Shown here piece by piece: positions 3,658 to 23,044 of a stretch of 64,000 nucleotides of DNA. A program made the position numbers and the translations under genes. This DNA is from Aminobacter aminovorans (GTDB taxonomy: Bacteria > Pseudomonadota > Alphaproteobacteria > Rhizobiales > Rhizobiaceae). The stretch spans positions 1,627,501 through 1,691,500 of the forward strand of contig NZ_UFSM01000001.1 in the NCBI RefSeq assembly GCF_900445235.1. The letters run 5' to 3'. The notes under the pieces were generated by a model. The model saw nothing but the letters and a program-made list of their open reading frames with translations. It was not told where the DNA came from and ran no database searches. How positions within the stretch are numbered: position 1 is the stretch's first letter; each line of letters begins with the position of its first letter.

Positions 3658-5649
3658 TCAGGCTGCCAGACCCAGCCTTTGTTTGCGCTTGGTCGCCCAT
3701 GCCGTGATCAGCTGGTCGGCGGTCAGGCCCATGAAGGCGACGCAGAGGCCAAGAACGAGGCCTTTGCCGGCATCGTTGAAGGTCAGCGCCCGGAAGATCT
3801 CCTGGCCGATGTCCTTGGTGCCGATGAAGGCGGCGATGATGACCATGAACAGGGCAAACATGATCGTCTGGTTGATACCGAGCATGATCTCGGGGAAAGC
3901 AAGCGGCATACGGATGTTCCACAGAAGCTGCCTTTGCGTGCAGCCCGACGTGATGCCGGCCTCGACGATCTCCTGGGGCACGTTGCGCAGGCCGAAGATG
4001 GTGTAACGGACGATCGGGATCATCGCATAGATGATGATCGCCGAGATCGCAGCGACGTCGCCGACCTTGAACAGCATGATCACGGGGATCAGGTAGATAA
4101 AGGACGGGAAGGTCTGGAAGGTGTCACACATCAACTTGACGATGCCGGTGCGGCGCTCGCTGCGCGCGGCCCAGATGCCAATCGGCAGGCCGATCATGAT
4201 GCACAGCAGCACCGCGACGGTCACCATATAGGCGGTGATCAGCGAGCGCTCCCAGTAACCGGCGAAGGCGATGAACAGCACGAAGCCGGAGACGATCGCG
4301 GCGAGTCTGAAACCGCCGAGCGACCAGCCTGCAGCGGCTACGAGCGCTACCATCGCCGTCCAGGGGATCGACTGGAACAGGTCGCGGATCGGGATCAGCA
4401 CGTAGAGCAGCATGGCGTTGCGGAGATATTGCAACGGGTCGTAGAGCGTGACCGTGACCCAGTCGACGAGCGCATCCCAGAAGGGTGCGGTGCTGAGCGC
4501 AAGCTCCGAAGGCCAGGCTTGGGCCCAGGGTGTGATCGCGGCAAGGAGAAGCGAGGCGACGACGACCACTAGCGATGCGGCGAAAAACGGGAAGCGCTGC
4601 AGCAGGCTGGCATCGGGCGCAACATGCGAGGGCTCCTTGTGGGCGGCAGCGCGGCTCAACTGGTCGAGGGTGATCGCCATCAGGACGATCGCCACGCCGC
4701 TTTCCAGCGCCTGGCCTATCTTCAGCGCCTGGAGCCGGAACAACAGGTCATGGCCAAGGCCGCGGGCACCGACAAAGGAGGCGATGACCACCATGGCCAG
4801 GCACTGCATGATGACTTGGTTGACGCCGACGAGCAGCGGCTGGCGCGCCGACGGGATCTCGACCATCCACAAGGTCTGGAAGCGAGTGCAGCCTGCCATC
4901 TTGCCGGCCTCGCGCACCTCTTCGGCCACGCCCTTGAGGCCGAGAATGGTGAGGCGAGCCATCGGCGGAATGGCGAAGATGACGGTTGCGATCGTGCCGG
5001 CCTTATGGCCGACACCGATGAAGACGGCGATCGGGATCAGGTAGGAAAAATGCGGCAGCGACTGCAGCACGTTGAGCAACGGCACGATGAGCGCTTCGAA
5101 CCACTGCTTCTTGACTGCAATAATGCCGATGCCGAAACCGATGAGACCCGCGATGGGGGCGGCGACCAGCACCACCGACAGGGTGATCATCGACAGTTCC
5201 CATTTGCCGAAGATCGCCATATAGGCGACGCAGCCTGCGGCCAGCGCGCCAAGGCGCCAGTCTTTGAGATACCAGCCGAGCACGCCTGCGAGCCCGGCGG
5301 TCATCACCCAGGGCATGGCGGCCACACCGATCCCGGGGAGGCCTGAGACCAGCAAGCCCTCGACGAAGGTCAGCGGCCAGGTGATCAGCTCGGCGATTGC
5401 GCGCGTCAAGTCGCGGAACGAGAACAGCCCGAAGATGGCGTCATCGCGCAGGTGGTCGAAAACGGTGTTCGCCCAGTCGACGAACGGAATGGTCCAGTCC
5501 TTGGGGACCCGCACCGCCCAGTCGGGCAAAAGCGAGGCAGCAAGCAGCAAGACCAGGAAAGGCAGAACGACAAGCAGCGGCTTGGTTATTGCGGCCAGCG
5601 GTTTCTGCGGTTCCATCGCCTCCTGGCGGGTCAGTATCGCGGCGCTCAT
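3658..5649 (-). CDS. tmoW: TMAO/betaine ABC transporter, fused double permease (TmoW-like)
   Basis: 663 residues made of two consecutive ProW-type permease modules. Each has a cluster of hydrophobic helices and the EAA loop: EVREAGKMAGCTRFQ in the first half, EIVEAGITSGCTQRQ in the second. Ordinary ProW/ChoW permeases are about half this size. A fused permease encoded after a ProX-like and a ProV-like gene matches TmoW of the marine TMAO importer TmoXVW. ATG start overlaps the ATPase stop (ATGA, 5646-5649), indicating translational coupling. The nearby Tdm and TorRST genes support TMAO as substrate. A glycine-betaine or choline importer remains possible, as the sequence alone does not fix ligand choice. 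Confidence 0.75.
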   Translation of the reverse strand: MSAAILTRQEAMEPQKPLAAITKPLLVVLPFLVLLLAASLLPDWAVRVPKDWTIPFVDWANTVFDHLRDDAIFGLFSFRDLTRAIAELITWPLTFVEGLLVSGLPGIGVAAMPWVMTAGLAGVLGWYLKDWRLGALAAGCVAYMAIFGKWELSMITLSVVLVAAPIAGLIGFGIGIIAVKKQWFEALIVPLLNVLQSLPHFSYLIPIAVFIGVGHKAGTIATVIFAIPPMARLTILGLKGVAEEVREAGKMAGCTRFQTLWMVEIPSARQPLLVGVNQVIMQCLAMVVIASFVGARGLGHDLLFRLQALKIGQALESGVAIVLMAITLDQLSRAAAHKEPSHVAPDASLLQRFPFFAASLVVVVASLLLAAITPWAQAWPSELALSTAPFWDALVDWVTVTLYDPLQYLRNAMLLYVLIPIRDLFQSIPWTAMVALVAAAGWSLGGFRLAAIVSGFVLFIAFAGYWERSLITAYMVTVAVLLCIMIGLPIGIWAARSERRTGIVKLMCDTFQTFPSFIYLIPVIMLFKVGDVAAISAIIIYAMIPIVRYTIFGLRNVPQEIVEAGITSGCTQRQLLWNIRMPLAFPEIMLGINQTIMFALFMVIIAAFIGTKDIGQEIFRALTFNDAGKGLVLGLCVAFMGLTADQLITAWATKRKQRLGLAA

Positions 5650-6674
5650 GCACACTGCTCCTTGCCGTAGAGAGCATCGATCAGACCGTCGCGGGTCAGC
5701 GTGCCGACGAGCGCGCCGCTATCGTCGACGACGTCGACAGGACGCTCCGAGGTCAGCACCTGGCGGGCGACGCTGGCGAGCAGGGCCTGTGCCTGGAGCG
5801 CAGCGGCGTCCGGCTTGCGAGAGGATGCGGGCGCCATGACGGCGCGAACCGACAGCAGGCGATCATGCGAGACGTTGCGGGTGAATTCGGCGACATAAGC
5901 GGTGGCCGGGCAGGTCACCAGTTCCTCGGCGGTGCCGAGCTGCTCGACGACGCCGTCCTTCATGATGGCGATGCGGTCGGCAACGCGGATTGCTTCGTCG
6001 AAATCGTGGGTAATGAAGACGATTGTCTTGTTGAGCACCTTCTGCAGGCGCAGGAATTCGTCCTGCATCTCACGACGGATGAGCGGATCGAGCGCGGAGA
6101 ACGGCTCGTCGAGGAACCACACATCGGGGCCGACGGCGAGCGAGCGGGCGATGCCGACGCGCTGCTGCTGGCCGCCGGAGAGCTCACGCGGATAGTAGGC
6201 CTCGCGACCCTTGAGGCCGACGAGTTCGATGACTTCGCGAGCGCGTCTTTCTCGTTTCTGGCGGTCAGTGCCGCGGACCTGGAGCGGGAAGGCGACGTTG
6301 TCGAGCACGGTGCGGTGCGGCAAAAGGGCGAAGTGCTGAAACACCATGCCCATCTTGTGGCGCCTGAGTTCAATCAGCTCGCGCTCGGTGGCGGCGAGAA
6401 TGTCGCGGCCCTCGAACATGACCTCGCCAGATGTCGGCTCGATCAGGCGCGCCAGGCAGCGCAGCAAGGTCGATTTGCCCGAGCCGGACAGGCCCATGAC
6501 GACGAGGATCTCGCCCGGCATCACGTCGAAGGAGACGTTGCGGACGGCGGGGACGTAGCCTTCGGCTCGTATTGTCTCGATCGAGGGGTTGTTGTGGTTG
6601 CGGCGCAGGAAGCCGGCGGGATCGGAGCCGTAGAGCTTCCAAAGGTTGCGGCATGCGATTTTTGCTTCGGACAT
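5646..6674 (-). CDS. tmoV: TMAO/betaine ABC transporter ATPase (TmoV/ProV-like)
   Basis: 342 residues. Walker A GLSGSGKST, Q-loop VFQHFALLPHRTV, signature LSGGQQQR, Walker B VWFLDEP and H-loop ITHDFDEA are all present in order. The C-terminal 70 residues resemble a CBS module (RPVDVVDDSGALVGTL), as in ProV, where it senses ionic strength. The N-terminal extension mentioning FLRRNHNN is also a ProV/ChoV trait. Start chosen at MSEAK (6674); the upstream in-frame ATG would add seven residues. Middle gene of the tmoXVW-like operon, 109 nt after the binding-protein gene. Confidence 0.8.
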   Translation of the reverse strand: MSEAKIACRNLWKLYGSDPAGFLRRNHNNPSIETIRAEGYVPAVRNVSFDVMPGEILVVMGLSGSGKSTLLRCLARLIEPTSGEVMFEGRDILAATERELIELRRHKMGMVFQHFALLPHRTVLDNVAFPLQVRGTDRQKRERRAREVIELVGLKGREAYYPRELSGGQQQRVGIARSLAVGPDVWFLDEPFSALDPLIRREMQDEFLRLQKVLNKTIVFITHDFDEAIRVADRIAIMKDGVVEQLGTAEELVTCPATAYVAEFTRNVSHDRLLSVRAVMAPASSRKPDAAALQAQALLASVARQVLTSERPVDVVDDSGALVGTLTRDGLIDALYGKEQCA

Positions 6675-6783
6675 GTCGGGTCTGCCTCTCGCCAAGGGGG
6701 CCGATTGCGTATGCGCAGCGAGGTGGCGCCCGCATGTGCGCGGGCGTCACGACGCCATGACAGGACGGATGAATGCGGAGGAA

Positions 6784-7737
6784 TTAGCTGGCCGAACCCA
6801 GCCAGGCCTTCCAGCGCGCCTCGTTGTCGGCCAGCCATTTGTCGGCGGCCGCCTCGGGCTCCATATTGTCGATGTCGGCGAGCTTCGCCTGCACGGCGAT
6901 GTCCATGTTGGAGAAGTTGATCTTCTGCAGGATGGCGTAGGCCTTGGGCCACTTGGTCGGGAATTCCTTCCAGGCGGCGATCTTCAAATAGCCGTCCTTC
7001 GGATTTCCGCAGTCGTAGCTGAGTTCCTTATTGGAACCCCAGGCCGGATCGTCCTTACATTTGGGATCGAAGGCCGGGAACTCGACGAACTTGCCGTCAT
7101 AGAGAGCCTCGACGAAGTTGGGTGTCCAGTTGAACAGGACGATCGGCTCCTTGCGCTTGACGGCGGATTCGAGCTCCGCCCACAATGCTGCCGACGATCC
7201 TGCGTTGACGACCTCGAAGTTCATTCCGAGAGCTTCGACACGTTCGGCGTCATGCTTGAGCCAGTCGACCGGGCCGCCGAGGAACCGGCCCTTGGGCGCT
7301 GTTTCGGCCGTGGCGAACTTGTCGGCGCAGGCGTTCAGCGCTTCCCAGGCGGGCAGGCCGGGGCAGACCTCCTCGACATAGGTCGGGTACCACCATTCTT
7401 CGCGGGTCTTGGCATCATGGGTGGCGGCATCGACGACGCAGCCTTCCTTGACCACCTTCTGGAAAGCAACGCCGAAAGCACCTTCCCAGACTTCATGCAC
7501 GAGGCTGACGTCGCCTTCGCACAGGGCGGTGTAGACGACTTGGCTGTCGGCGGAGACGTATTCGACCTTGGCACCGCCCTTCTCGAGCAGCTTGCCGACG
7601 ATGTGGGCGCCAACGATCTGGCTCGACCAGTTGTGAGTCGGGATCTTGACGACGTCGGTCGAATCCTGGGCGAACGCCGTGCCGGCGGCAAAAGCCATGA
7701 TCGTGGCCATGCTTGCAGATCTGGTAAAATTGGTCAT
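6784..7737 (-). CDS. tmoX: TMAO/betaine substrate-binding protein (TmoX/ProX-like)
   Basis: 317 residues with a Sec signal peptide (1-23, ending GTAFA). The mature protein belongs to the OpuAC/ProX type II binding proteins. Aromatic segments THNWSSQ, HEVWEGAFG, GGPVDWLKHD and LFNWTPNF supply Trp side chains suited to a cation-pi cage for a trimethylammonium group. Start ATG at 7737 has GGGAGGT six bases upstream; longer in-frame starts lack this. First gene of the importer operon, in the order X-V-W. The ligand is inferred to be TMAO from the tdm and tor neighbours; glycine betaine is the main alternative. Confidence 0.78.
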   Translation of the reverse strand: MTNFTRSASMATIMAFAAGTAFAQDSTDVVKIPTHNWSSQIVGAHIVGKLLEKGGAKVEYVSADSQVVYTALCEGDVSLVHEVWEGAFGVAFQKVVKEGCVVDAATHDAKTREEWWYPTYVEEVCPGLPAWEALNACADKFATAETAPKGRFLGGPVDWLKHDAERVEALGMNFEVVNAGSSAALWAELESAVKRKEPIVLFNWTPNFVEALYDGKFVEFPAFDPKCKDDPAWGSNKELSYDCGNPKDGYLKIAAWKEFPTKWPKAYAILQKINFSNMDIAVQAKLADIDNMEPEAAADKWLADNEARWKAWLGSAS

Positions 7738-8122
7738 TGAACCTCCCGTTCCGTTGTGTTGCGATTGTTCCCATGGAAGGCGGGATGCCGGCCTCTGTGT
7801 GGGCCTCTTGGATTTCCGCGCCATCCCCGCAAACATAGCGGTGAGAAGTGAACCGGTGTCGGCCGGGGTGTAAAAGTCGTGAGCCGACTTGTGAAATGAT
7901 GTTAATGAAAATCCTACCCGCGCGACCAAACTCGCGGGCTAATTTCCGGCCGAAGGCCACAAGGCTTGCGCGGAAGCGTAATCATCTTCGCGCCTTTGTG
8001 TTCGAGGTTGCCGGACAATCCGGGTCTTGGCTTGCAACGAGGTCTTGGCTTGCAACCGCCCGCTTCGATAGAAGAAGCTGGTTTCGGCCATCTACCGGCA
8101 TATCTCCCTTGGTGATCGCGCT
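7738..8122. promoter_or_regulatory. Divergent promoter region between tmoX and the response regulator gene
   Basis: 385 bp without a gene. It holds AAGTCG-N5-CGACTT at 7873-7889, the 20-mer shared with the torR promoter at 7882-7901, a stem CCCGCG/CGCGGG at 7916-7937, and a tandem 16-bp repeat GGTCTTGGCTTGCAAC at 8023-8038 and 8041-8056 (period 18 bp). Nothing here reads as a conserved protein. Confidence 0.6.
7882..7901 (+). promoter_or_regulatory. 20-bp motif shared with the torR promoter
   Basis: GCCGACTTGTGAAATGATGT is identical to 11646-11665, just upstream of torR. Here it lies 145-164 bp upstream of the tmoX ATG. An exact 20-mer in two promoters of one functional region suggests a common regulator, TorR being the obvious candidate. 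This is inference. Confidence 0.55.
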
Positions 8123-8815
8123 ATGAACCCCAGCATTCTTATTGTCGATGACGACCCGGATATCCGCCACGTGATCGGCATCGCGCTGGAAAAGGCGGGA
8201 ATGCATGTCCATCAGGCGGCCAACGGGCGCCTGGCCTTGGAGCAGTTGCGGCAACACCATGCCGACCTGGTGGTGCTGGACATCGGCATGCCGGTCATGG
8301 ATGGGGTCGAATGCTGCAAGACCATCCGTGCCAGCTCACATGTTCCGATCGTCTTCCTGACCGCGCATGACGACGAAGTCGACCGGATCGTAGGGTTCGA
8401 GCTTGGGGCGGACGATTATGTCAGCAAGCCGTTCTCGCCGCGCGAACTGTTGCTGCGGATCAAGGCCATACTGGCACGAGGCAAACAGGCAGGCGGCATC
8501 ATGAGGCACGGGGACCTCACCCTCGATAGCGGACGCCACGCCTGCTCGCTCGCCGGAAAGGATCTGCCGCTGACAGCGACAGAATTTTCGGTGCTGGAAA
8601 TCCTCGCGGCTCGACCTGGAATCGTCGTCGGTCGTGGGGCCATGATTGACAAGGCCTATGGCGGGAACAACACCTTGTCAGGACGTACAGTCGACAGTCA
8701 CGTGCGCAACATCCGCGCCAAGGCCGCGGCCCTTGGTTACGCCGACGTGATCGAAACGGTGAGAGGGGTGGGGCTGCGGCTTGGCAATTGCGTCGCTGGG
8801 CCTTGTGCCGCGTGA
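8123..8815 (+). CDS. OmpR/PhoB-family response regulator
   Basis: 230 residues. Receiver domain at about 3-118 with the acidic pair DDD near the N-terminus, phospho-acceptor Asp53 (VVLDIGMP), a TAH segment and Lys in SKPFS. A C-terminal winged helix (about 130-225) contains RTVDSHVRNIRAK and the terminal RGVGLRL wing. It is followed by its sensor kinase with a 4-bp GTGA overlap, so the two are co-translated. A PhoB-like array of 11-bp spaced repeats upstream of the secreted-protein gene at 10494 is a plausible target. It also lies divergent to the tmoX-like gene, so a role in importer control is possible. Confidence 0.88.
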   Translation: MNPSILIVDDDPDIRHVIGIALEKAGMHVHQAANGRLALEQLRQHHADLVVLDIGMPVMDGVECCKTIRASSHVPIVFLTAHDDEVDRIVGFELGADDYVSKPFSPRELLLRIKAILARGKQAGGIMRHGDLTLDSGRHACSLAGKDLPLTATEFSVLEILAARPGIVVGRGAMIDKAYGGNNTLSGRTVDSHVRNIRAKAAALGYADVIETVRGVGLRLGNCVAGPCAA

Positions 8816-10347
8816 GCCAGATAGCCCGGAAATGGCGGCCGTCCATGCCGCTGGTTGTGGCGATCGTCTGTGCAAGCCTGCTTGCGGTGCCGATCGCAAC
8901 GACGCTGGCGTTGCAGATCGGAACGAACCGGCTTGTCAACGAGACGGAGACTTCGCTGATCAAGCAAGCGGCGATCTATGCCGGTGCCTATGTCGTTGCC
9001 TTTGAGGCCGAGTCGCCCGAAGCAGGAGGGGCCTTGCCTGGATACTATCTGCCACCGCCCAAGCGCATATTCTGGAGCGCTGCCTCACGAACCTTTCGCC
9101 CGCTCCTGAACCTTCGCCAGGATGTTGTCGAGCCTGTCCGCCCCGACCCCGTGCCCACCGCGGAGCGACTCGACCCGCGATATCTAAGGATTGCGCCGGG
9201 GCTGAGCGCCCTGGCAGACAATGCCAGCCGTACGACGCTTTCGACTGTCGTTTTCCTGGACCATCAAGGGATAGACATGCTCGCCCGCCAGCCGGCGAGT
9301 TTTGCCGCGGTGCCGGAGGTTCGGCAGGCGCTGCAAGGCGATGTCGGAGCTGCACTGCGCTGGCGGAGTGACGCGGGCACGCGGTTTCGGTTGGCAGCGT
9401 TGGGCGGAGGAACAGGTTTCCGGGTGCTGATTGCCTATCCTGTCATCAGCCAGAACCGGGTTATCGGCGCGGTCTACTTGTCCAGGACTGCTCCTGGGTT
9501 GACGGAGTATTTCGCCGGGGAGCGCATCGCCGTCATCGTCCTAGTCGTCGTGACGCTGCTGAGCGCCGCTGTCGTGGGCACACTGTTGGTGCGGACGATG
9601 CTCCGGCCGATACGCGCCCTGCGCGACCAGTCGAGAATGGTCGCGAGTGGCGGCCATTCCGAGCTTGCTCCGCTCAACCACTACGGTATGCGGGAGATTG
9701 CCGAATTGGGAGAGGCCGTCATCACCATGGCTGGTGCGCTGTCGCGGCGGAGCAAGGAAATCAGCATCTACACCAACCACGTTACCCATGAGCTCAAATC
9801 TCCGGTTACCTCGATCATGGGTGCAGCCGAGCTTCTTGAGGACGGCCACCTGTCCGATGATGCGCAGCAAAGGCTTATAGGCACCATCAAGACCCAGGGG
9901 GAGCGGATGGATCTGCTGCTCCACCAACTCCGCGACATGACAAGGTCGCGCGAGGGTATGCGCGGCGAACCTGGCCAAGCGAGGGACATGCTGCCCGAGA
10001 TTGCCGGCCTCGACATCAGCCTGGCTCCCCCCGATGTGGTCCTGCCCCTGTCGGTTGCGCATGGACAAACGGTACTGGCGCACATGGCGCAGAATGCACG
10101 CCACCATCGGGCGACCAGGCTCGACCTCGATTGGGATGGACGCACTCTCCGGCTTTCAGACAATGGCGAGGGATTTGCCGATATCGATCTTGGCCGGTTG
10201 CCCGAACCGTTCTTCACCACGCGCCGGGAAGATGGGGGGACGGGCCTCGGCCTGGCCATCGTGGTGGCCATCCTGGACCTTTATGGCGCGCGGCTGACGC
10301 CGGTTGCCGCTCCGGGCGGCGCCGTTTTCGAGATCGTGTTCGACTAG
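8812..10347 (+). CDS. Membrane sensor histidine kinase
   Basis: 511 residues from the GTG at 8812. One membrane helix lies near residues 11-35, then a periplasmic domain of about 200 residues, then a second helix (VIVLVVVTLLSAAVVGTLL). HAMP, the dimerisation helix with phospho-acceptor His326 (NHVTHELKSP), and a HATPase with the N box, G1 DNGEGF and G2 GGTGLGLAI follow. The N box reads QNARHH, slightly divergent. It pairs with the response regulator upstream, whose stop codon it overlaps. The signal is not evident from the sequence. The overall layout resembles CreC/TctE-type kinases. Confidence 0.87.
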   Translation: MSQIARKWRPSMPLVVAIVCASLLAVPIATTLALQIGTNRLVNETETSLIKQAAIYAGAYVVAFEAESPEAGGALPGYYLPPPKRIFWSAASRTFRPLLNLRQDVVEPVRPDPVPTAERLDPRYLRIAPGLSALADNASRTTLSTVVFLDHQGIDMLARQPASFAAVPEVRQALQGDVGAALRWRSDAGTRFRLAALGGGTGFRVLIAYPVISQNRVIGAVYLSRTAPGLTEYFAGERIAVIVLVVVTLLSAAVVGTLLVRTMLRPIRALRDQSRMVASGGHSELAPLNHYGMREIAELGEAVITMAGALSRRSKEISIYTNHVTHELKSPVTSIMGAAELLEDGHLSDDAQQRLIGTIKTQGERMDLLLHQLRDMTRSREGMRGEPGQARDMLPEIAGLDISLAPPDVVLPLSVAHGQTVLAHMAQNARHHRATRLDLDWDGRTLRLSDNGEGFADIDLGRLPEPFFTTRREDGGTGLGLAIVVAILDLYGARLTPVAAPGGAVFEIVFD

Positions 10348-10378
10348 CTCCGTCGGAGAGCTTTGCGTTCGGGCGGGC

Positions 10379-10406
10379 CTGCACAGAATCTGCACGCGAG
10401 CTGCAC
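10379..10406 (+). promoter_or_regulatory. Three CTGCAC repeats at exact 11-bp spacing (PhoB-like box)
   Basis: CTGCAC occurs at 10379, 10390 and 10401, each separated by 5 bp (AGAAT, GCGAG). Direct repeats with an 11-bp period are the binding pattern of OmpR/PhoB-family regulators. The array lies 88-115 bp before the ATG of the secreted protein gene and right after the two-component genes, so the linked response regulator is the natural candidate to bind it. Confidence 0.6.
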
Positions 10407-10493
10407 GACTTCGAGGTCGAAAGCACGCCGTCCGAAAACTAGACAATTGAGGGCAACGGGCCGGCTGGCCCCGATCCACTCAAGGGTAGACCT

Positions 10494-11561
10494 ATGAAGT
10501 TGAAACGTCTTCTTGGCGCTGTCGTAACGCTTGGTGCTGCGATTGCCGCCACATCCTCCATGGCGTGGGACAATCCCGCCAATCGATACGAGAACGCCTA
10601 CAAGCAATACACGGGTGCCACATGTCCACTGGCCGCGGACAAGATCGAACATTTCGTCTATTTCAGCCGGGATCGCGATGCGATCCGCGACCATGCCTTC
10701 TTGACCAACGACCGCTTCGTCGGCGCGCAGATCATGTATGCGTGGCGCCAGCTTGAGCCGACTGAAGGACACTACGATTTCTCGCTGATCCAGTCTGATG
10801 TCGACTATCTCGCCAAACATGGCAAGCGGCTCTTCATTCAGTTGCAGGAAGCGTCCTTCTCCCCCGAGTACAAGCCGGTGCCCGACTATCTGTTGAAGGG
10901 CGACTATGATGGCGGCATCACCGCGCAACATACTGACGACGGAGCCATCGAAGGTTGGGTTGCCAAGCGCTGGAACGCCAAGGTTCAGGCGCGTTTTGCG
11001 GCACTGCTTGCAGCACTCGGCAAGCAGTTCGACGGTGTGATCGAAGGCATCAATCTGCAGGAAACGGCAATTGGCGTTTCGCCGGAAACGGATTCGTCCT
11101 TTACCCCGGACAAATATGTGGCGGCGCTAAAGACCAACATGCAGGCGATGAAAATCGCATTTCCGACCTCGACGACCATGCTCTACGCGAACTTCATGCC
11201 CGGCGAGTGGCTACCCTGGGAGGACAAGGGATATCTGCGCGGGATCTATGAGTTTGGCGACAAGATCGGCGTCGGCATGGGGGCTCCCGATCTCATGTAC
11301 ATGAAAAAGGGTCAGCTCAATCACGCCCTGACGATGATGCATGAAGGCAAGTTCACCGTGCCGCTCGGCATTGCCGTGCAGGACGGCAACTATGTCGGCG
11401 AGACAGGCTCGACGAATGTCGTGGCAAAGCGCTCGAACCTCGTGCCAAGCCTTCATGCCTTTGCGCAGGATTTCCTGAAGGTCCGTTACATGTTCTGGGT
11501 CAACCAGGAGCCGTATTTCGAGGAGGACGTGCTGCCCTGCTTCCCGGCCAGGAAAGGCTGA
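10494..11561 (+). CDS. Secreted protein, glycoside-hydrolase-like TIM barrel, function unknown
   Basis: 355 residues with a Sec signal peptide (1-24, ending SSMA). The sequence reads like a TIM-barrel glycosidase: QIMYAWRQLEPTEGHYDFS recalls beta-strand 2 of clan A enzymes, GKRLFIQLQEASF the next strand, and GVIEGINLQETAIG may carry the acid/base Glu near beta-4. I cannot place it in a specific GH family, and the nucleophile is not certain. ATG start after GGGTAGACCT. It is probably controlled by the upstream two-component system through the CTGCAC array. A periplasmic or extracellular glycan-processing role is inferred only. Confidence 0.65.
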   Translation: MKLKRLLGAVVTLGAAIAATSSMAWDNPANRYENAYKQYTGATCPLAADKIEHFVYFSRDRDAIRDHAFLTNDRFVGAQIMYAWRQLEPTEGHYDFSLIQSDVDYLAKHGKRLFIQLQEASFSPEYKPVPDYLLKGDYDGGITAQHTDDGAIEGWVAKRWNAKVQARFAALLAALGKQFDGVIEGINLQETAIGVSPETDSSFTPDKYVAALKTNMQAMKIAFPTSTTMLYANFMPGEWLPWEDKGYLRGIYEFGDKIGVGMGAPDLMYMKKGQLNHALTMMHEGKFTVPLGIAVQDGNYVGETGSTNVVAKRSNLVPSLHAFAQDFLKVRYMFWVNQEPYFEEDVLPCFPARKG

Positions 11562-11645
11562 AGTGACAGATCCCAGGCCATGAAGTGGGGGGCGGCGACG
11601 CCATGACAAGTGTGCCGCCGCTTCCTTCCGTCGTTGCCGGTGCGG

Positions 11646-11677
11646 GCCGACTTGTGAAATGATGTCAACAAAGTCGG
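11646..11677 (+). promoter_or_regulatory. torR upstream motif: shared 20-mer within an inverted repeat
   Basis: 11646-11665 is identical to 7882-7901 in front of tmoX. Here it also forms half of CCGACTT (11647-11653) ... AAGTCGG (11671-11677). The right arm touches the GGGAGGA ribosome-binding site of torR, so binding could give autoregulation. Confidence 0.55.
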
Positions 11678-11691
11678 GAGGACAAGATGGC

Positions 11692-12426
11692 ATGCGGGTT
11701 CAACATCACATCGTGATCGTCGAGGACGACCCGGTCACGCGGGCCAAGCTGGCCGGCTATTTCCTGGCCGAAGGCTACAAGGTCAGCGAGGCCGGCGACG
11801 GCGAACAGATGCGTGCCATCATTTCCAGGCATCCGGCCGATCTCTTGATGATCGACATCAATCTGCCGGGAGAGGACGGCCTCAGGTTGACGCGCGAGCA
11901 GCGCGAACGGTCAGACGTCGGCATCATCCTGGTCACTGGCCGGACCGACACCGTCGACCGCATTGTCGGGCTGGAGATCGGGGCCGACGACTATGTCACC
12001 AAGCCGGTCGAGCACCGCGAGCTGCTGGCCCGGGTCAAGGGCCTTCTCCGTCGAGTCGGCAAGGGCCGGCTGCCGCCGGCAGCATCGGGCACGCGGCAAT
12101 TCCACGGTTGGACCCTGGAGGTGGCGCGGCGCACGCTGCAGGCCGCCGACGGCACCTTCGTCGAACTGACCGGGGCCGAGTTCAAGTTGCTTTCAGTACT
12201 GACTGCCAATCCTGGCCAGGTGCTGTCGCGGGAACGGCTGCTGCATGAGATTTCGAGGCGCGAATGGGATGCCAGCGACCGTACCGTCGACGTGCTGGTC
12301 AGGCGCCTCAGGCAGAAGCTGAACGACAATCCGCGCACGCCGCGTATCATCGTCACCGCCCATGGCGAGGGGTATTTCTTTGCGCCTGACGCCGTCCAGC
12401 CGGGCCGCGTGGCGGCGACGTCCTAG
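11692..12426 (+). CDS. torR: TMAO-response regulator (TorR-type, OmpR family)
   Basis: 244 residues. Receiver domain with EDDP near the N-terminus, Asp55 as phospho-acceptor (LMIDINLPG), and Lys in TKPVEHRELL. The winged helix has SDRTVDVLVRRLRQKL and HGEGYFF. The text, including the TKPVEHREL segment, is typical of TorR. Start at 11692 is preferred because GGGAGGA lies 9 nt upstream; an in-frame ATG at 11659 falls inside the inverted repeat. It is convergent with torS (6-bp gap) and close to torT. In enterobacteria TorR drives torCAD; here no torCAD is visible, and tdm and tmoXVW are the likely targets. Confidence 0.82.
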   Translation: MRVQHHIVIVEDDPVTRAKLAGYFLAEGYKVSEAGDGEQMRAIISRHPADLLMIDINLPGEDGLRLTREQRERSDVGIILVTGRTDTVDRIVGLEIGADDYVTKPVEHRELLARVKGLLRRVGKGRLPPAASGTRQFHGWTLEVARRTLQAADGTFVELTGAEFKLLSVLTANPGQVLSRERLLHEISRREWDASDRTVDVLVRRLRQKLNDNPRTPRIIVTAHGEGYFFAPDAVQPGRVAATS

Positions 12427-12432
12427 ATTGCC

Positions 12433-15357
<2,925 letters not shown>

Positions 15358-15408
15358 GGCTCATATAATCATGGTTTGCATTGCCAGCGTAAGCTGTCTG
15401 TAGCGCCG

Positions 15409-15498
15409 AGGTTCCGATTGGACGCGCAAGGCACGCTGTCGCGTGCTGAGGTGGACGTGATCCTGTCTGAAAATCGATTTCGATTTTCGGGGTCATGC
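15409..15498. repeat. Dispersed palindromic element, copy 1 (torS-torT gap)
   Basis: GAAAATCG-ATTT-CGATTTTC at 15469-15488 is a perfect 8-bp inverted repeat, followed by GGGGTCATGC. Upstream, CCGATTGGACGCGCAAGGCACGC (about 15414-15436) matches the second module of the copy at 63231-63333. The two modules appear in a different order from that copy. It occupies the shared torS/torT promoter region. Confidence 0.6.
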
Positions 15499-15512
15499 AC
15501 TAGCGTAAGACG

Positions 15513-16589
15513 ATGCGTGCCCCCGCCCCAAGCAAATGCCTGACCCTGATCGCTGCAGCCTTCATCGCATGCGGCATTATCCAACCCGCCGATGCGGCGG
15601 AAACAACGTGGAAGCTGAACGCTTGGGAACCGCCATTCGACTATTCCAGGCAGCCGGCGACGATCGACTACCAGCCCGTCGCCAGGGCGGCGAAGCCGTG
15701 GCGCATCTGCGCGTCTTATCCGCATCTCAAGGATTCCTACTGGGTCAGCGTCAATTACGGCATGGTCGAGCAGGCGCGTTCGGCGGGCGTCAAGCTGACG
15801 GTCGTCGAGGCCGGCGGCTATCCCAATCTCGACCGCCAGATCGAGCAGATCCGTACCTGCAGCGCTACTGCCGACGCGCTCATCGTCGGCACCGTGTCCT
15901 ATGAGGGCCTGACGCCGACGATCAGGGACATCGCCAGGCGCATCCCTGTCATCGCCGCGGTCAACGACATCGACGACGCCGGCATTGCGGCGAAATCGGG
16001 GGTTTCGTGGGAAGAGATGGGCCATTCCATCGGCGCCTATCTGGCGCGGCTGCATCCGGCCGGCACCATGCCGGTCAGCGTCGCCTGGTTTCCCGGGCCG
16101 AAGGGTGCCGGCTGGGTGAAGTTCGTCGAGGCCGGCTTCCAGCGCGCGCTGAGGCAGAGCTCGGCCGAGATCGCGGCGGTCAAATGGGGCGACACCGGCG
16201 TCGAGATCCAGTTGCTCTTGATCGAGGAGATGCTCGAGGCCCAGCCCGACATCGACTACATCGTCGGCAGCGCGCCGACGGCCGATGCCGCGGTCAGCAT
16301 CCTCAGGGCCCAGGGCCGCGCCAACCACGTCCAGGTGCTGGCCGACTATTTCACCCACGGCACGTTCCGGGAGATCAACCGGGGCAAGGTGGTGGCGGCG
16401 CCGACCGACTCGCCGCCGCTGCAGGGGCGCATCGCCATTGATCAGGCGATCCGCGCGATCGAGGGTACGCTGCGCTACCGCCATGTCGGGCCGCCGGTCG
16501 AGGTGATCGACAGGAACAATGTTCAGTCGCTCGACCTCGAGCGCTCGCTCGCCCCGGCTTGGTTCAAGCCGACCTTCGAGGTGCAGTAG
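15513..16589 (+). CDS. torT: Periplasmic TMAO-binding sensor protein (TorT-type)
   Basis: 358 residues with an N-terminal signal peptide (about 1-28, ending ADA). The mature part is a periplasmic binding protein of the LacI/RbsB fold. The N-terminal WKLNAWEPPFDYS and the later KDSYWVSVNYGMVEQAR and GGYPNLDRQIEQI match TorT, which binds TMAO and docks on TorS. There is no ABC permease partner gene beside it, which fits a sensor and not a transporter. It is divergent from torS and in line with tdm 108 nt downstream. Confidence 0.85.
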   Translation: MRAPAPSKCLTLIAAAFIACGIIQPADAAETTWKLNAWEPPFDYSRQPATIDYQPVARAAKPWRICASYPHLKDSYWVSVNYGMVEQARSAGVKLTVVEAGGYPNLDRQIEQIRTCSATADALIVGTVSYEGLTPTIRDIARRIPVIAAVNDIDDAGIAAKSGVSWEEMGHSIGAYLARLHPAGTMPVSVAWFPGPKGAGWVKFVEAGFQRALRQSSAEIAAVKWGDTGVEIQLLLIEEMLEAQPDIDYIVGSAPTADAAVSILRAQGRANHVQVLADYFTHGTFREINRGKVVAAPTDSPPLQGRIAIDQAIRAIEGTLRYRHVGPPVEVIDRNNVQSLDLERSLAPAWFKPTFEVQ

Positions 16590-16600
16590 CCGGTAACAAC

Positions 16601-16628
16601 TTTTCACATCCTGCGCGGTGATTTTCAC
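16601..16628 (+). promoter_or_regulatory. Paired TTTTCAC repeats upstream of tdm
   Basis: TTTTCAC at 16601-16607 and again at 16622-16628, 21 bp apart (two helical turns), 70-97 bp before the tdm ATG. On the opposite strand both read GTGAAAA, similar to the GTGAAA core in the 20-mer at tmoX and torR. A TorR site is possible. Confidence 0.5.
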
Positions 16629-16697
16629 TTGGCTCGGCGGACTGGTTTACAGCCGGCTGCTAAGCTGAGCGATGGCTGTGCTGTGAGGAGGGCGGTG

Positions 16698-19064
16698 ATG
16701 GTCGCGACGGTTTATCCTGAGGTGGTGGCTGGCCCGCCGCGTCCGAGCCTGATCCTGCAGCCTGGTCTGTTGGTGCCCGGCATGGAGCGCTACCACGTGC
16801 CGGGCTCGGGTGCGGTGTTGATCGACATCGAGGCCGGCGATCATGTGACGGTGCGCAATCTCGAAGGCGGACAGGCGTGCGAGCTTGTGGCCTTCGATGC
16901 TGCCGGCCGCGCCGATCCGGGTATTCTCGGCACACGCTCGAACAGCGATGCGTCGGGGCTGAAGGCGCTGCTCGTCGATGGCGATGACAGTTTGCAGAAG
17001 TTCCGTTTGGGCCTCGCCCGCCGCAAGCTCGAGCTTGGCCGGGTCGAAGCGGTGCGCTTCTTCGACGGGTCGACGCCGGCCGGTACCGAGGAGAGTTTTG
17101 TCGCTGCCCGCGCCGGCTCGCTGGTCGTTGCCGCACCCGGTGCGCCGATGGCGGTCGACAGCCAGGACACCTCGACGCCTCTTGTGGTGATGGTCAAGCG
17201 GGCCAAGCTGCGCACGGCTCCTGGCGGTTTCGACCTGCCCGATCCGCTCGCCGATCCGGTGCTCGATCTCCGGGTCAAGTCGAAGACGGCGGAGAGCTAC
17301 TTCGTCAAGGCCGGTGACTACATCCAGATCATCGACGTCGATGGCCGCCAGTGCACCGACTTCCAGTGCTTCTCCGCCCGCAAGCTCGACAAGGGCCGCG
17401 ACCTCGCGCTTGACGTCACCGCCACCCGTTCGCTGATGGGCCATGCCTATCCGATGCCAGGCCTGCATGCCAAATATTTCGACCAGGATTTCGAACCGCT
17501 CGTCGAGGTGGTGCAGGACACCTGCGGCCGCCATGACGCCTTTGCGCTCGCCTGCTACGCCAAATATTACGACGACATCGGTTATCCCGGCCACATCAAC
17601 TGCTCGGAGAACTTCAACGGTGCGCTTGTACCGCATGGGGTGAATGCCCGCGCCGGCTGGATGGCGGTCAACTTCTTCTTCAACACCGGCATCGATGCGC
17701 ATGGCGTGATGTTCTCCGACGAGCCCTGGTCGCGGCCGGGCGACTATGTGCTGCTGAGAGCGCTGACCGACATCGTCTGCGTCTCCTCTGCCTGTCCCGA
17801 CGACACCACGCCGGCCAATGGCTGGAACCTCACCGACATCCACGTCCGGACCTACTCCGGCAACAACAAGTTCCAGCGCGCGATCGCCCGACGCACGACC
17901 CCGGAGGCAGAACCCAAGATGACCCGCGAGACCGGCTTCCACGCAAGCTTTGCCAAGCACACCCGCAACTTCATCGAATACAAGGGCTTCTGGCTGCCGC
18001 AGGAATTCGCCAAAGAGGGCGCCATCGAGGAATACTGGGCCTGCCGCCAGAAGGCGGTGGTGATGGACCTCTCCGCCCTGCGCAAGTTCGAGGTGACGGG
18101 CCCCGATGCCGAAGCGCTGATGCAGTACACGCTGACCCGCGACGTCAAGAAGCTCGGCATCGGCCAGGTCGTCTATACCGCCATGTGCTACGAGCATGGC
18201 GGCATGGTCGACGACGGCACGCTGCTCAGGCTCGGCAAGGACAATTTCCGCTGGATCTGCGGTGACGACTATTCCGGTGTCTGGCTGCGCGAGCAGGCGG
18301 AGAAGCTCGGCCTCAAGGTGCTTGTCCGCTCCTCGACCGACCAGATGCACAACATCGCCGTCCAGGGCCCGAACAGCCGCGACATCCTGAAGGAGATCGT
18401 CTGGACGCCGCCGCACCAGCCGGCACTCAGCGAACTCGAATGGTTCCGCTTCACCATCGGCCGCATCGGCGATGCGACCGGCGTGCCGATCGTGGTGTCG
18501 CGCACCGGCTACACCGGCGAGCTCGGCTACGAGGTCTGGTGTCATCCGCGCGATGCCGAGACCGTCTTCGATGCGGTGTGGGCAGCCGGCCAGCCGCATG
18601 GGCTGAAGCCGATGGGTTTTGCTGCCCTCGACATGGTCCGCATCGAGGCCGGCCTGATCTTTGCCAATTACGAGTTCTCCGACCAGACCGACCCGTTCGA
18701 GGCCGGCATCGGCTTCACCGTGCCGCTCAAGACCAAGACCGACGACTTCATCGGCCGCGAGGCGCTGATCCGGCGCAAGGACAATCCGATCCACCAGCTT
18801 GTCGGCCTCGACATCGATAGCAATGTCACTGTCGGCCATGGCGACTGCGTCCATATCGGCCGCGCCCAGATCGGCATCGTCACCTCGTCGATGCGCTCGC
18901 CCATCCTCGGCAAGAACATCGCACTCGCCCGCGTCGAGGCACACCATGCCAATGTCGGCACCGAGGTCGAGGTCGGCAAGCTCGACGGCCAGCAAAAGCG
19001 CCTGCCGGCCAGGATCGTGCCTTTCGCCCACTACGACCCCAAGAAGGAACGCCCGAGGTCATAG
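16698..19064 (+). CDS. tdm: Trimethylamine-N-oxide demethylase (aldolase), DUF1989-GcvT fusion
   Basis: 788 residues. The N-terminal half is a DUF1989 module with Cys219 and Cys224 (RQCTDFQC), Cys276, Cys286 and Cys302 (INCSENF), offering metal ligands. The C-terminal half (about 415-788) is a GcvT-like tetrahydrofolate-binding module (RTGYTGELGYEVW). This two-domain arrangement and length is that of Tdm, which converts TMAO to dimethylamine and formaldehyde; the folate domain can take up the C1 unit. ATG at 16698 follows GAGGAGGGCGG. Context with TorRST and a TmoXVW-type importer supports it strongly. An alternative is a related dimethylglycine/sarcosine-type enzyme, but those carry an FAD domain, absent here. 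Confidence 0.85.
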   Translation: MVATVYPEVVAGPPRPSLILQPGLLVPGMERYHVPGSGAVLIDIEAGDHVTVRNLEGGQACELVAFDAAGRADPGILGTRSNSDASGLKALLVDGDDSLQKFRLGLARRKLELGRVEAVRFFDGSTPAGTEESFVAARAGSLVVAAPGAPMAVDSQDTSTPLVVMVKRAKLRTAPGGFDLPDPLADPVLDLRVKSKTAESYFVKAGDYIQIIDVDGRQCTDFQCFSARKLDKGRDLALDVTATRSLMGHAYPMPGLHAKYFDQDFEPLVEVVQDTCGRHDAFALACYAKYYDDIGYPGHINCSENFNGALVPHGVNARAGWMAVNFFFNTGIDAHGVMFSDEPWSRPGDYVLLRALTDIVCVSSACPDDTTPANGWNLTDIHVRTYSGNNKFQRAIARRTTPEAEPKMTRETGFHASFAKHTRNFIEYKGFWLPQEFAKEGAIEEYWACRQKAVVMDLSALRKFEVTGPDAEALMQYTLTRDVKKLGIGQVVYTAMCYEHGGMVDDGTLLRLGKDNFRWICGDDYSGVWLREQAEKLGLKVLVRSSTDQMHNIAVQGPNSRDILKEIVWTPPHQPALSELEWFRFTIGRIGDATGVPIVVSRTGYTGELGYEVWCHPRDAETVFDAVWAAGQPHGLKPMGFAALDMVRIEAGLIFANYEFSDQTDPFEAGIGFTVPLKTKTDDFIGREALIRRKDNPIHQLVGLDIDSNVTVGHGDCVHIGRAQIGIVTSSMRSPILGKNIALARVEAHHANVGTEVEVGKLDGQQKRLPARIVPFAHYDPKKERPRS

Positions 19065-19096
19065 GCAACCGGCACAACAACATCACCCCGACAATG

Positions 19097-19124
19097 CAAA
19101 AGCCCCGCAACAGCGGGGCTTTCT
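19097..19124. terminator. Bidirectional terminator between tdm and fbpC
   Basis: AAAGCCCCGC (19099-19108), loop AACA, GCGGGGCTTT (19113-19122). A flanking A run on the left and T run on the right let it end transcripts from both convergent genes. Confidence 0.85.
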
Positions 19125-19149
19125 GTTGGTAGAGGCAGGATTAGCCTGA

Positions 19150-20244
19150 TCAGGCGGCGCCATCGAAGACGTGGGCCTTGCCGAGGACGCTGATCCGCAC
19201 GATCGCGCCCACTGTTGGCGCGTCGACGAAGGACCGGCGCAGGACGAGCGGGTGGTTGCCGATGACGGCGGCGTCGGGCGGGTCGAGACTGTTGAGTACG
19301 CGCAGCGCGACAGTGCTTACCGAGCCGGCGAACTCTGCCTCGATGATCTCGCCGAAGACCACGTTGGGTGGCGGATCGGCGACGTCTGCCCGCGATGCCG
19401 GCTCGAGGAAGACCTGCTCCGGGCGCAGCATGATGCGGGCGACGTCGCGCCGGCTCGTGCTGTCCGCGCCGATGTGGCCGATGGCGCATTCGGCGATGCC
19501 GCCTGAGATACGCGCCGGCAGAATGATGCTGTCACCGAGGAACTCGGCGATCATCCGGTCCTTCGGGCGCTGATAGAGGTCGCGGGGCGCGCCGACCTGC
19601 GAGAAGGCGCCGTCGCGCATGACAGCGACCTGGTCGGCGAAAGACAGGGCCTCGGCCTGGTCGTGGGTAACAAGGATCGTGGCGATGCCGGCCTGTTCGA
19701 GCAATTCGGCGACAGCCTTGCGCATCGAAGCGCGCAGCCCGGTGTCGAGAGCAGAAAACGGTTCGTCGAGCAGCATCAGGCGCGGCTTGCGCGCCATGGC
19801 GCGGGCGAGTGCCACGCGTTGCTGCTGGCCGCCGGAGAGCTGGTGCGGGCGGCGCTTGAGGATGCCCCTGTCGAGGCCGACGACATAAGCGAGCTCGGCG
19901 ATGCGTTCGTCGCGCGCATCCTCGTCGCGTTTCATGCCGAAGCCGATATTGTCGGCGATGCTGAGATGGGGAAACAGCGCGCCGTCCTGCGCAACCACGC
20001 CGATGCCGCGGCGATGCGCCGGCACCGCTTCGCCATTGCCAGCAAGTTCTGAACCGTCGAGCACGATGCGGCCGGCATCCGGAGCTTCGAAACCGGCTAT
20101 CAGGCGCAGCAAGGTGGTCTTGCCGCAGCCGGAGGGGCCGACGATGGCGGTGCGGCTTGCCGCTGCCATCGAAAGCTCGATGCCGTCGACCGCTGTGACA
20201 TTGCCATAGGCTTTGCGCAGGCCATGCAGTTCAAGAAAGCTCAT
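19150..20244 (-). CDS. fbpC: Fe3+ ABC transporter ATP-binding protein (FbpC-type)
   Basis: 364 residues. Walker [10 protein letters not shown], signature LSGGQQQRV, Walker B LMLLDEP, H-loop [10 protein letters not shown]-terminal TOBE-like segment ([10 protein letters not shown]) follows, as in FbpC/PotA-type importers. ATG start at 20244 overlaps the permease stop (ATGA). Last gene of the fbpABC-type operon. The reading frame continues open upstream of 20244 across the permease gene, but that part is out of frame with the true gene and is not protein-like. Confidence 0.88.
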
Positions 20245-21779
20245 CGGCCGGCCATCCGTCGCGACTGTACATGGAGCAGCCAGGTCAAAGGCAGCGACAT
20301 CACCACCATGATCAGCGCATAGGGCGCGGCTGCGGCATAATCGAGTTCGTTGCTCATCGCCCAGAACGCCATGGCCAGCGTGCGCGTGCCGTTGGGCGCC
20401 AGCATCTGGGTGGCGGTAAGCTCGTTGGTGATGCCAAGCCCGACCAAGGCGACACCTGCGGCAGCACCGGGTGCGGACAGGCGCACGGTCGTCGACCACA
20501 GCGCGCGCAAGGGGCTGCGGCCGAGGCTGCCGGCTGCCTGTTCGAGCTCGACCGGGGCCTGGGCGATGCTGGCGCGCAGTGAAACCAGCGCCCGCGGCAA
20601 GAACATCAGGGCATAGGCGGCGAGAATGGTGACGATGGTCTGGTAGAGCGGCATGGCGACACGTACCGTGACCGTGACGAGCGCGAGCGCGATGACCACG
20701 CCGGGCAATGAGCCTACGATATAGTTGCAGCCCTCTAGCAGGCGCGGCAGCGGGCCGGGGCGACGGATCGACAGCCAGGCCATCGGGATGGCGATGGCAA
20801 CGGTGAGCAGCGCGCCGCCAAGTGCGAGCACAAGCGTCTGCCACAGCGCCAGGCCGATGACCTCGAAGTTCCAGACGCCGGCCCCACCAGCGACGAGCCA
20901 GCGGCCGACGGTCAGGAACGGCACGCCGAGCGCAAGCAGTGCGGTGATGAGAGGCAAGGCGAGGCAAGGCAAGGTGGCACGGCCGAGGCTGGCGCGCACA
21001 GCCGTGCGCGCGGCACCCGATCCGACGCGAGCGTAGCGCTCGCCGCCGCGCAGCATGGCTTCGAGCGCCAGCAGTATTAGGCAGCAGACGACCAGCACGC
21101 TGGCCAGCATGTTGGCCGCAGGTCCGTTGAAGGTCGACTGGAACTGGTCGACGATGGCGGTGGTGAAGGTGTCGAAACGGATGAAGACATAGAGGCCATA
21201 TTCGGCGAGCAGGTGCAGGCCGACGAGCAGCGAGCCGCCCAGCACGGCGAGCTTGAGCTGGGGCAGGACGACCCGAAGGAACACGCGCCAGGGCGTGTCG
21301 CCGAGCGAGGCGGCAGCGTCTTCCAGCGCCGGATCGAGCCGGCGCAGCGTCGCTGCCACCGGCAGATAGATGAAGGGAAAATAGGCGATGACCGAAATAA
21401 GCACGCCAGCGAACAGCCCATGCATGGATGGAAACAGCGTGATCCAGGCATAGGAATGGACGAAGGCAGGAACGGCGAGCGGCGCCACCGACAGCCCCGA
21501 CCAGAAACGGGCGCCGGGCATGTCGCTGCGTTCGGTCAGCCAGGCCAGCGCTACCGACAGAAGCACGGTGATCGGCACGACGAGAATGACGAGTGACAGC
21601 GTATTGACCAGGAGTTCGCCGACACGCGGCCGGAACACCAGGGCTGAGGCGGTTGTCCAACCGGTCTGGATCGCGACCCAGATGATGAAACCGAGCGGCA
21701 AAAGGGCAAACAGCGATACCAAAACCGCCGCCACCGCGATCCATGACGTCGGCAAAAGGCGAGACCAGGCTGCGGCCAT
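20241..21779 (-). CDS. fbpB: Fe3+ ABC transporter permease, two-module (FbpB-type)
   Basis: About 512 residues with some 12 hydrophobic helices and two permease modules. EAA-like loops read [15 protein letters not shown] and [15 protein letters not shown]. Fused permeases are the rule for SfuB/FbpB ferric importers. Start taken at MAAAWSRL (21779), just before the first helix; a GTG at 21830 is an alternative. It lies 184 nt after the binding-protein gene and overlaps fbpC by 4 nt. Confidence 0.85.
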
Positions 21780-21963
21780 GGTCTGAGGCAATGGCCGCGA
21801 AGGATGATATTCAGCCGACGAAGGCGTCACTCCATGCTCCCAGTTCGCCTCGCGGCGAGGAATAGGTGACCATCCGGTGAAGGAATTCCGCCGTCTTGGC
21901 AAGCCCTTCAGGTGCAAAAGCTCCCGCGACCGTATCGCGGGAGCCGACTTGGCGAAGCGGCAT

Positions 21964-22971
21964 TCAGAGCAGCCCGGCTGCCGTCATCAGTTCCGACACC
22001 TTCTTGCTGTCGAGCTTCGAGGCCTCGACCTTCGGTGCCTGCAGGTCGTTGAGCGGGGTCAGTGCCGGATTGGAGCCGTCGCCGACACCGATGGCATATT
22101 CGAATGACGTGCCCGTCTTGAGGATGCCCTGGCCGGTCTTGCCGGTGATCCACTTCAGGAAGGCCTGAGCTTCCTTGGGGTGTTTGCTCGACGCCAGGAC
22201 CCCACCGCCAGAGATGCTGACGAAGGCGCCGGGATCCTGGTTCTTGAACAGGTGCAGCGAGACGTTCTTGCTGTTTTCACCCGTCTTGGCCTGGTCGCCG
22301 TAGTAGTAATAATGGTAGATCACGGCACCTTCGACTTCGCCGGCATTGACCGCCTTCATGGCGGTGCTGTTGCCGCGATAGGCGGTGAAATTGGCCTTCA
22401 TGCCCTTCAGCCATTCGGCGGTGGCAGCCTCGCCCTTGAGCTCAAGCAGCGCGCCGACGATGGCCTGGAAATCGGCTCCCGATGGCGAAGCCGCCCAGCG
22501 GCCCTTCCAGCTCGGGTCGGCAAGGTCGAGCAGCGACTTAGGCAACTTGTCGGCGGTCAGCTTGGTCTTGTCATAGGCAAAGACGGTGCTGCGTGCGGCG
22601 ATGCCGGTCCAGTGGCCGTTGGCGGGCCGGTATTCCTCGGGCACCTGCGCCAGCGTGTCGGCATCGACAGGCGCGAACAGCCCGGCATTGTCGACCAGCG
22701 CCATGGCTGGCGAGTTCTCGGTCAGGAAGACGTCGGCCGGCGACAACTTGCCTTCAGCTACGATCTGATTGCCGAATTCGGTGTCGCTGCCCTTGCGGAT
22801 CGTCACCTTGATACCGGTTTCCTTGGTGAAGGCCTCGGCCCATTCGTTGGTCAGGCTTTCGTGCTGGGCGTTGTAGACGACGATGCCTTGGGCATCCTGC
22901 GCCAAAGCGGATGAGGCGTAGAGGGCCGTCAGCAAGGCGGCGCTGGTCAATGCGTGATAAGGGGACTTCAC
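21964..22971 (-). CDS. fbpA: Fe3+-binding periplasmic protein (FbpA/SfuA-type)
   Basis: 335 residues from the GTG at 22971 (GGAG six bases upstream), with a signal peptide ending SALA. The run [10 protein letters not shown] supplies the vicinal tyrosines that bind Fe3+ in FbpA-type transferrin-like proteins; the early [12 protein letters not shown] holds the usual first-strand motif. Heads an fbpABC-type operon that imports ferric iron from the periplasm. A TGA-N9-TCA motif at 23030-23044 suggests repression by RirA under iron sufficiency. Confidence 0.88.
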
Positions 22972-23029
22972 GGGGCACTCCTTGGAAGCTGAAGGTACGT
23001 GCTGGGGCCAGGCAGGCTGCAACAATACA

Positions 23030-23044
23030 TGAGTACCTGAGTCA
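23030..23044. promoter_or_regulatory. Candidate IRO box (RirA site) upstream of fbpA
   Basis: TGAGTACCTGAGTCA fits the IRO consensus TGA-N9-TCA known from rhizobial iron-regulated promoters. It lies 59 bp before the GTG of the ferric-binding protein gene. The motif is short and can occur by chance, but the position and target gene fit well. Confidence 0.5.

Follow-up and report, generated by a model that had tools for sequence, protein, structure and literature searches.

A TorRST-type sensory module linked to trimethylamine N-oxide uptake and demethylation genes in Alphaproteobacteria

What does a TorT-TorS-TorR system control when it lies among genes for the uptake and demethylation of trimethylamine N-oxide (TMAO)? 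The question is raised by a locus of the soil bacterium Aminobacter aminovorans, analysed here within a window of 64,000 nucleotides (G000:C1:1627501-1691500) of a 5.9-Mb genome, G000. The function of TorT, TorS and TorR in E. coli is described in sections of PMC4949985 and PMC6814406, and the Vibrio tor gene order in a section of PMC10662104. The window shares with these TorRST-torCAD systems, which serve TMAO respiration, the families of sensor, phosphorelay and regulator, and both have 10-bp direct repeats, but it lacks torCAD and its apparent targets are import and demethylation. A first-pass annotation had proposed that TorRST is rewired here from respiration to catabolism, and comparison of related sequences supports that proposal; the annotation mentioned neither the second tdm in its separate tmm cluster, nor the repeat, nor the additional two-component cassette described below. 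We consider it likely that the locus represents a TMAO-catabolic module in which Alphaproteobacteria have recruited TorRST to regulate how TMAO is taken up and demethylated. Known parts would thus be joined in a new circuit, which recurs in relatives and has good comparative support.

The tmm-tdm-tmoXVW cluster of Ruegeria pomeroyi has an importer and a demethylase of the same families as the window. Its pathway is regulated by the AraC-like TmaR, which is reported to respond to a downstream catabolite of methylamine, and by the GntR-type TmoR (both from a portion of PMC13390433), whereas a membrane TMAO sensor is linked in the window instead. TmaR and TmoR are cytoplasmic by family; catabolism governed by a membrane TMAO sensor would, if true, follow a different control logic. 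The paper on the genus Aminobacter (PMC8235418) lists tmm, tmd, tmoP and dmmDABC in a legend, and TorR does not turn up in its main text when searched for as a word. Titles and abstract openings in the open-licence literature gave, among the matches listed, none linking TorRST with tdm or tmoXVW.

Importer, phosphorelay and demethylase genes

The importer genes lie on the minus strand. The permease gene (3658..5655) encodes two fused BPD_transp_1 domains (PF00528 in two stretches); its product scores 378 bits with TIGR03416, over the cut-off of 363, and 326 bits with NF008196, under the cut-off of 439, the best stretches for the two models falling in opposite halves of the protein. Beside it are a ProV-type ABC ATPase gene (5646..6695; TIGR01186, 346 bits, cut-off 326.6) and tmoX (6784..7737, listed ORF to 7929), which encodes a predicted TMAO-binding protein of OpuAC type (PF04069). 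The probable starts of tmoX (7737), torR (11692) and tdm (16698) were picked by eye from Shine-Dalgarno-like sequence, downstream of the listed ORF starts. The nearest solved structure to the window TmoX is 4XZ6 (E 3e-117; runner-up 2e-9), which a section of PMC8918994 identifies as R. pomeroyi TmoX. The seven TMAO-pocket residues listed there, including an aromatic box and Glu131 (W55, W102, F106, E131, W177, F220 and W222), are all kept in the window protein. By sequence, the window TmoX retains the TMAO pocket and is predicted to bind TMAO. Among 16 TmoX proteins of the module loci described below, F106 is altered in three.

As first annotated, all the named genes lie within 15 kb, though the region does not consist of TMAO genes only: a three-gene cassette occupies 8123-11561 on the plus strand, between tmoX and torR. 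It encodes an OmpR-type response regulator (8123..8815; PF00072, PF00486) with no NCBIfam match at 1e-60, a HAMP histidine kinase (8788..10347; PF00512, PF02518, PF00672) and a secreted-looking protein of obscure function (10494..11561) with no family above cut-off. Of 7996 candidates scored against the last, 1779 are homologous at E<=1e-20; source names among the 120 listed read 'hypothetical' or 'uncharacterized'.

The sensory genes follow, and TorR, a TorS with HisKA, REC and HPt domains, and TorT are all found where first annotated, with NCBIfam and Pfam support. The OmpR-type torR (11692..12426, plus strand, listed ORF from 11659) encodes a protein reaching 303.6 bits with NF008034 (cut-off 275), and motif comparison places its phosphoacceptor at D66. 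The hybrid kinase gene torS (12433..15357, minus strand) encodes the TorS sensor domain PF21689 (144.6 bits), HAMP, HisKA, HATPase, REC and HPt; residue motifs indicate that H486 (HisKA), D776 (REC) and H909 (HPt) of the phosphorelay are present. TorS reaches TIGR02956 (722 bits, cut-off 676.5) and misses NF008543 (402 bits versus 982). The third gene, torT (15513..16589, plus strand), encodes a sensor-type periplasmic binding protein that scores 387 bits with NF008185 (cut-off 200) and equals, without exceeding, the TIGR02955 cut-off of 310 bits. NCBIfam equivalog cut-offs are thus reached by TorR, TorS, TorT and Tdm, with TorT only equalling one of its two.

By score, the CUT2-type binding protein 4YHS is a closer match to the window TorT (321 bits) than Vibrio TorT is (210 bits). 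Nine residues were chosen from an alignment with Vibrio TorT (3O1H), and the window protein is identical to it at all nine; several of these positions presumably line the TMAO pocket. The nine are also identical in all 17 module loci tested (the 18 minus L212). In the 48 ABC-type TorT-like proteins tested, tryptophan never occupies the W166 position and histidine never the H282 position.

The demethylase gene, tdm copy 1, lies at 16698..19064 on the plus strand (listed ORF from 16629). Its product has DUF1989, GCV_T and GCV_T_C domains, solved relatives in 9Q59/9Q5A, and a score of 1263 bits with NF053776 (cut-off 1100), which bears out its first assignment as a DUF1989-GcvT protein of the Tdm type. 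Further 3', at 19150-25074, come an 864-aa ORF with an ABC-ATPase domain, a gene for an extracellular binding protein and one for a GMC oxidoreductase, the last being the sole gene of the three with a match close to the A. anthyllidis module.

Distribution of the module

Eighteen loci were gathered by separate TorT, TorS and tdm searches and form no single random sample. They comprise the window, loci of the genus (L165-L171), the family (L137, L139, L172 and L173) and the class (L185, L186 and L187), and those of A. anthyllidis (L017), Mesorhizobium sp. 1M-11 (L010) and, on plasmid pAMI5, Paracoccus aminophilus JCM 7686 (L212). Matches to the TorS domain in the class of less than 100 bits (17 of 21 genomes) were kept out; BLAST of seven of these 17 genomes found no TorT, TorR or TmoX in any of them. 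A TmoX-type protein adjoins torR in 17 of the 18 loci. The contig of the remaining one, L187, begins 291 bp before torR, and this locus, whose tmoX side is missing at the contig end, received its catabolic label solely for the gene order torR-torS-torT. No ATPase match was found between TmoX and the permease in L186. The cassette is present in four loci (the window, L165, L167 and L168) and absent in 13; its place is not visible in L187.

The first-pass annotation had called for a survey of torRST beside tdm. The linkage does recur, in 10 of the 18 module loci and in two placements, while tdm lies outside the module in the other eight. It follows torT in seven loci (the window, L165, L167, L168, L171, L010 and L017), where it is visible in L167, L168 and L171 as a fragment running to the contig end, and in the other three, L172 (where the contig end cuts it), L173 and L185, it stands behind the permease gene. 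Seven of the eight genomes with tdm outside the module have it elsewhere; in P. aminophilus it sits on pAMI6, as stated in a part of PMC4543880. The eighth, the L187 genome (G587), has no tdm at E<=1e-150. The nearest named tdm loci to that of the window are from A. anthyllidis and A. aganoensis. TorRST is visible in only two (L010 and L017) of the best 80 tdm loci, within the DNA stretches compared, and five more have a TmoXVW-like importer and no TorRST; most tdm genes stand outside the TorRST module. In L170 (G345), a formyltransferase gene (Formyl_trans_N/C) and an aldehyde dehydrogenase gene lie convergent to torT at 7355-9912 and perhaps represent a split 10-formyl-THF dehydrogenase.

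TorT models proved unspecific, the NF008185 cut-off being passed in 62 of 394 genomes of the family. TorT neighbourhoods were examined in 58 of the 62 (all except G150, G191, G252 and G357; in G122, one of two TorT matches), and TorS, TorR and TmoX were sought beside TorT by tblastn with the window proteins. In 12 of the 58, among them all eight genus genomes of the sample, TorT has TorS, TorR and a TmoX-type protein as neighbours. The other 46 have no TorS, TorR or TmoX match adjoining TorT, mostly with an ABC ATPase there instead, and TorT alone was rejected as a survey marker on this ground. Database TorT names in the family may therefore mislead. TorT-like proteins that pass NF008185 with no TorS nearby are found in L125-L136, L138, L140-L164 and L175-L184.

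Candidate TorR boxes

A 10-bp direct repeat, TTGTGAAAnnATGTYAA, was noticed 5' of torR in module loci, and the working pattern was set as TGTGAAAnnWTGTYAA, with W at the tenth base taken from L172 and L173. It is related to the tor boxes of E. coli, which are 10-bp repeats of CTGTTCATAT according to part of PMC9239176. On this resemblance, we take the window repeats as candidate TorR binding sites. The window has three candidates: TGTGAAATGATGTTAA upstream of tmoX (7890..7905, plus strand, no mismatch), TGTGAAATGATGTCAA upstream of torR (11653..11668, plus strand, no mismatch) and TGTGAAAAGTTGTTAC in the torT-tdm gap (16593..16608, minus strand, one mismatch), the last of which was spotted by eye ahead of the scan. 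Searched as TGTGAAANNATGTYAA at <=1 mismatch, the repeat gives two sites in the window versus 0.00 in shuffles, and as TGTGAAANNWTGTYAA at <=2 mismatches three versus 0.19 expected. The whole genome contains five sites at <=1 mismatch, three of them in the window, and one for the reversed control pattern. The two other genome sites, each with one mismatch, are at G000:C1:3529741 and 4285185 (L210 and L211).

A site between tmoX and torR occurs at <=1 mismatch in 14 of the 18 loci, a count that, like most within this set, is not independent, the repeat having been discovered in the same loci. The pattern was already fixed when the plasmid locus of P. aminophilus, a species of another taxonomic order, was retrieved, and this locus has an exact site in the same place. 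The diverged loci L137, L185, L186 and L187 have none in this position at <=2 mismatches, though L185 has tdm in its module. In L017, the second half-site of the repeat reads TGTTAATAT. The window cassette is flanked on both sides by a 20-bp perfect repeat containing the box, and all four cassette-bearing loci carry two boxes each. With two boxes around the cassette, both promoters keep one.

The tdm-side site is weaker and lies on the strand opposite tdm. It is found at 1-2 mismatches in 7/7 torT-tdm loci and, at <=2 mismatches, in 0/4 torT loci without tdm next to torT (L166, L169, L170 and L139) and 0/8 tdm loci of tmm clusters, two of which (L005 and L201) carry the same tdm sequence and probably represent one organism. 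L137, L173 and L212 have no site 3' of torT. The torS-torT gap was rejected as a place for a TorR site, since the 14 fully scanned loci have no match there at <=2 mismatches. In 199 other loci (3.2 Mb), there was no exact site, and the two one-mismatch sites are the same DNA twice (L058 and L174). Twelve loci without TmoX or Tdm have no site at <=1 mismatch; seven of them have one or two two-mismatch sites, including one in L224 (7745) just 5' of torR.

Predicted circuit, alternatives and origin

Tdm would convert TMAO to dimethylamine and a C1 unit, and the role of its GcvT-like half on tetrahydrofolate is known from the family. In the circuit we propose, periplasmic TMAO would bind TorT, the TorT-TorS complex would autophosphorylate, and the phosphate would pass from H486 via D776 and H909 to D66 of TorR. 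Phosphorylated TorR would then bind the three repeats and raise expression of tmoXVW for import, torR for feedback, and tdm, with the GcvT-like half of Tdm putting the C1 unit onto tetrahydrofolate. TMAO respiration would not be the target of TorRST here. The rewiring is supported because TmoX stands beside torR nearly throughout, tdm has two placements, TorS and TorT each form one group, and there are three repeats. If true, this would be an example of a sensory phosphorelay moving from respiration to nutrition, and the presence of TorRST need not mean TMAO respiration.

TorRST might instead govern only the importer and itself, with tdm a passenger expressed by read-through from torT or from its own promoter. 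The near-universal linkage of TmoX (17/18), compared with 10/18 for tdm, would fit this, as would a repeat on the tdm side that is weaker than those of tmoX and torR. We nevertheless regard it as unlikely: tdm occupies two positions in the module, one of which is immediately after the importer genes (L172, L173 and L185), and the tdm-side repeat accompanies tdm after torT and not in the tmm clusters. The sensor might also read another methylated osmolyte, such as betaine, choline, carnitine or DMSP, the Tor names being misleading. Although NF008185 passes many TorT-like ABC binding proteins and F106 is changed in three of 16 TmoX proteins, this is very improbable in view of the complete TMAO pocket (7/7) of the window TmoX and the nine Vibrio residues of its TorT, with Tdm and TmoX both indicating TMAO.

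The remaining alternative is that TorRST still serves TMAO or S-oxide reduction, acting in trans on a distant BisC-family reductase. As first annotated, the region has no torC, torA or torD. The sole full-length BisC/TorA-family gene in G000, at G000:C1:587311, scores 949 bits (cut-off 1017), and 679 and 647 bits on the TorA models (cut-offs 909 and 1465). Such scores alone cannot exclude TorA, because the TorRST-linked Azospirillum reductase is also below cut-off on the same three models (840, 670 and 632 bits). The match of the Azospirillum protein reaches the very start of the TorA model, whereas that of the G000 protein begins at model position 45-49, so the G000 protein has no leader. The neighbours of the G000 gene are a Peripla_BP_6 protein and an FAD oxidoreductase, none of the five genome repeat sites is near it, and G000 has no match to the NNT cytochrome family of TorC and NapC (PF03264). 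The gene was thus rejected as torA for the missing leader and cytochrome and not for its score alone. Moreover, a BisC-family match at E<=1e-150 is absent in eight of 15 module genomes. On the other side, PF03264 matches at E<=0.001 occur in 10 of the 15, nine over cut-off; the frames of these nine are 214-251 aa long, with a second frame of 596 aa in one genome, and are probably NapC-like. Control of a respiratory reductase in trans is, on these grounds, barely credible.

Turning to the origin of the catabolic module, a single branch sets the 18 module rows apart from the rows labelled 'resp' in both the TorS tree (support 99/99) and the TorT tree (99/97). The labels are to be read with care: 'resp' means no TmoX or Tdm match in the stretch, with a TorA/BisC-family match in three of 12 (L213, L223 and L224), 'cat' includes L187, and the labels are mostly confounded with class. 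In the TorS tree, the window groups with the other genus genomes and with A. anthyllidis. TorS and TorT of the Azospirillum ramasamyi plasmid (L213) join just outside the module group in both trees; L213 is the sole known alphaproteobacterial row outside the group, and several branches are long. This plasmid has an alphaproteobacterial TorRST like that of the window, but beside a TorA-like reductase, and its stretch contains no TmoX, no Tdm and no repeat at <=2 mismatches. The grouping is compatible with a single switch from respiration to catabolism.

G000 has a second tdm. A block of 2412 bp at 16725..19136 (plus strand) matches G000:C1:4740095-4742506 with 99.88% identity and three differences (blastn against L092 8095-10506). 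It begins roughly ten codons 3' of the probable start of the gene and stops 72 bp past its end; the flanks of the two copies gave no blastn match to each other. Copy 2 (G000:C1:4740173-4742452) lies with tmm (NF058570, 846 bits), a TMAO permease gene (NF053774, 890 bits), a GntR regulator, a Peripla_BP_6 protein and folD. This is a cluster like the Methylocella-type tmm-tdm-TMAO permease cluster, and has no TorRST, no TmoX and no repeat. The tdm copies are 99.9% identical in G000, 99.8% in G306 (whose second tdm was compared over a 1716-base part), 94.6% in A. anthyllidis and 100% in 1M-11, and identity within a genome exceeds every between-genome value in the rows of these four genomes.

Gene conversion is the simplest reading of the twins because both places are common to several species. 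It would keep the two enzymes near-identical under different promoters: in twin-tdm hosts, one tdm would serve TMAO sensed outside by TorRST, and that of the tmm/GntR/TMAO-permease cluster would serve TMAO formed inside the cell from trimethylamine. In draft genomes, assembly collapse may also produce such identity, and in G261, G376 and G207 the module tdm is interrupted by a contig end. We lean towards a history in which one alphaproteobacterial TorRST clade switched to TMAO catabolism and two separately regulated tdm genes are kept alike by gene conversion. The twins would then exemplify two near-identical enzymes whose promoters differ while concerted evolution apparently keeps the enzymes alike. 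The genome also has a third DUF1989 match (L003; G000:C1:2772793-2773281), in a 300-aa open frame. Four tmm clusters, those of G051, G345, G306 and A. aganoensis, apparently carry a tandem duplication of the TMAO permease gene (L199 12375-15867, L201 1374-4870, L204 2649-6146 and L005 1118-4614).
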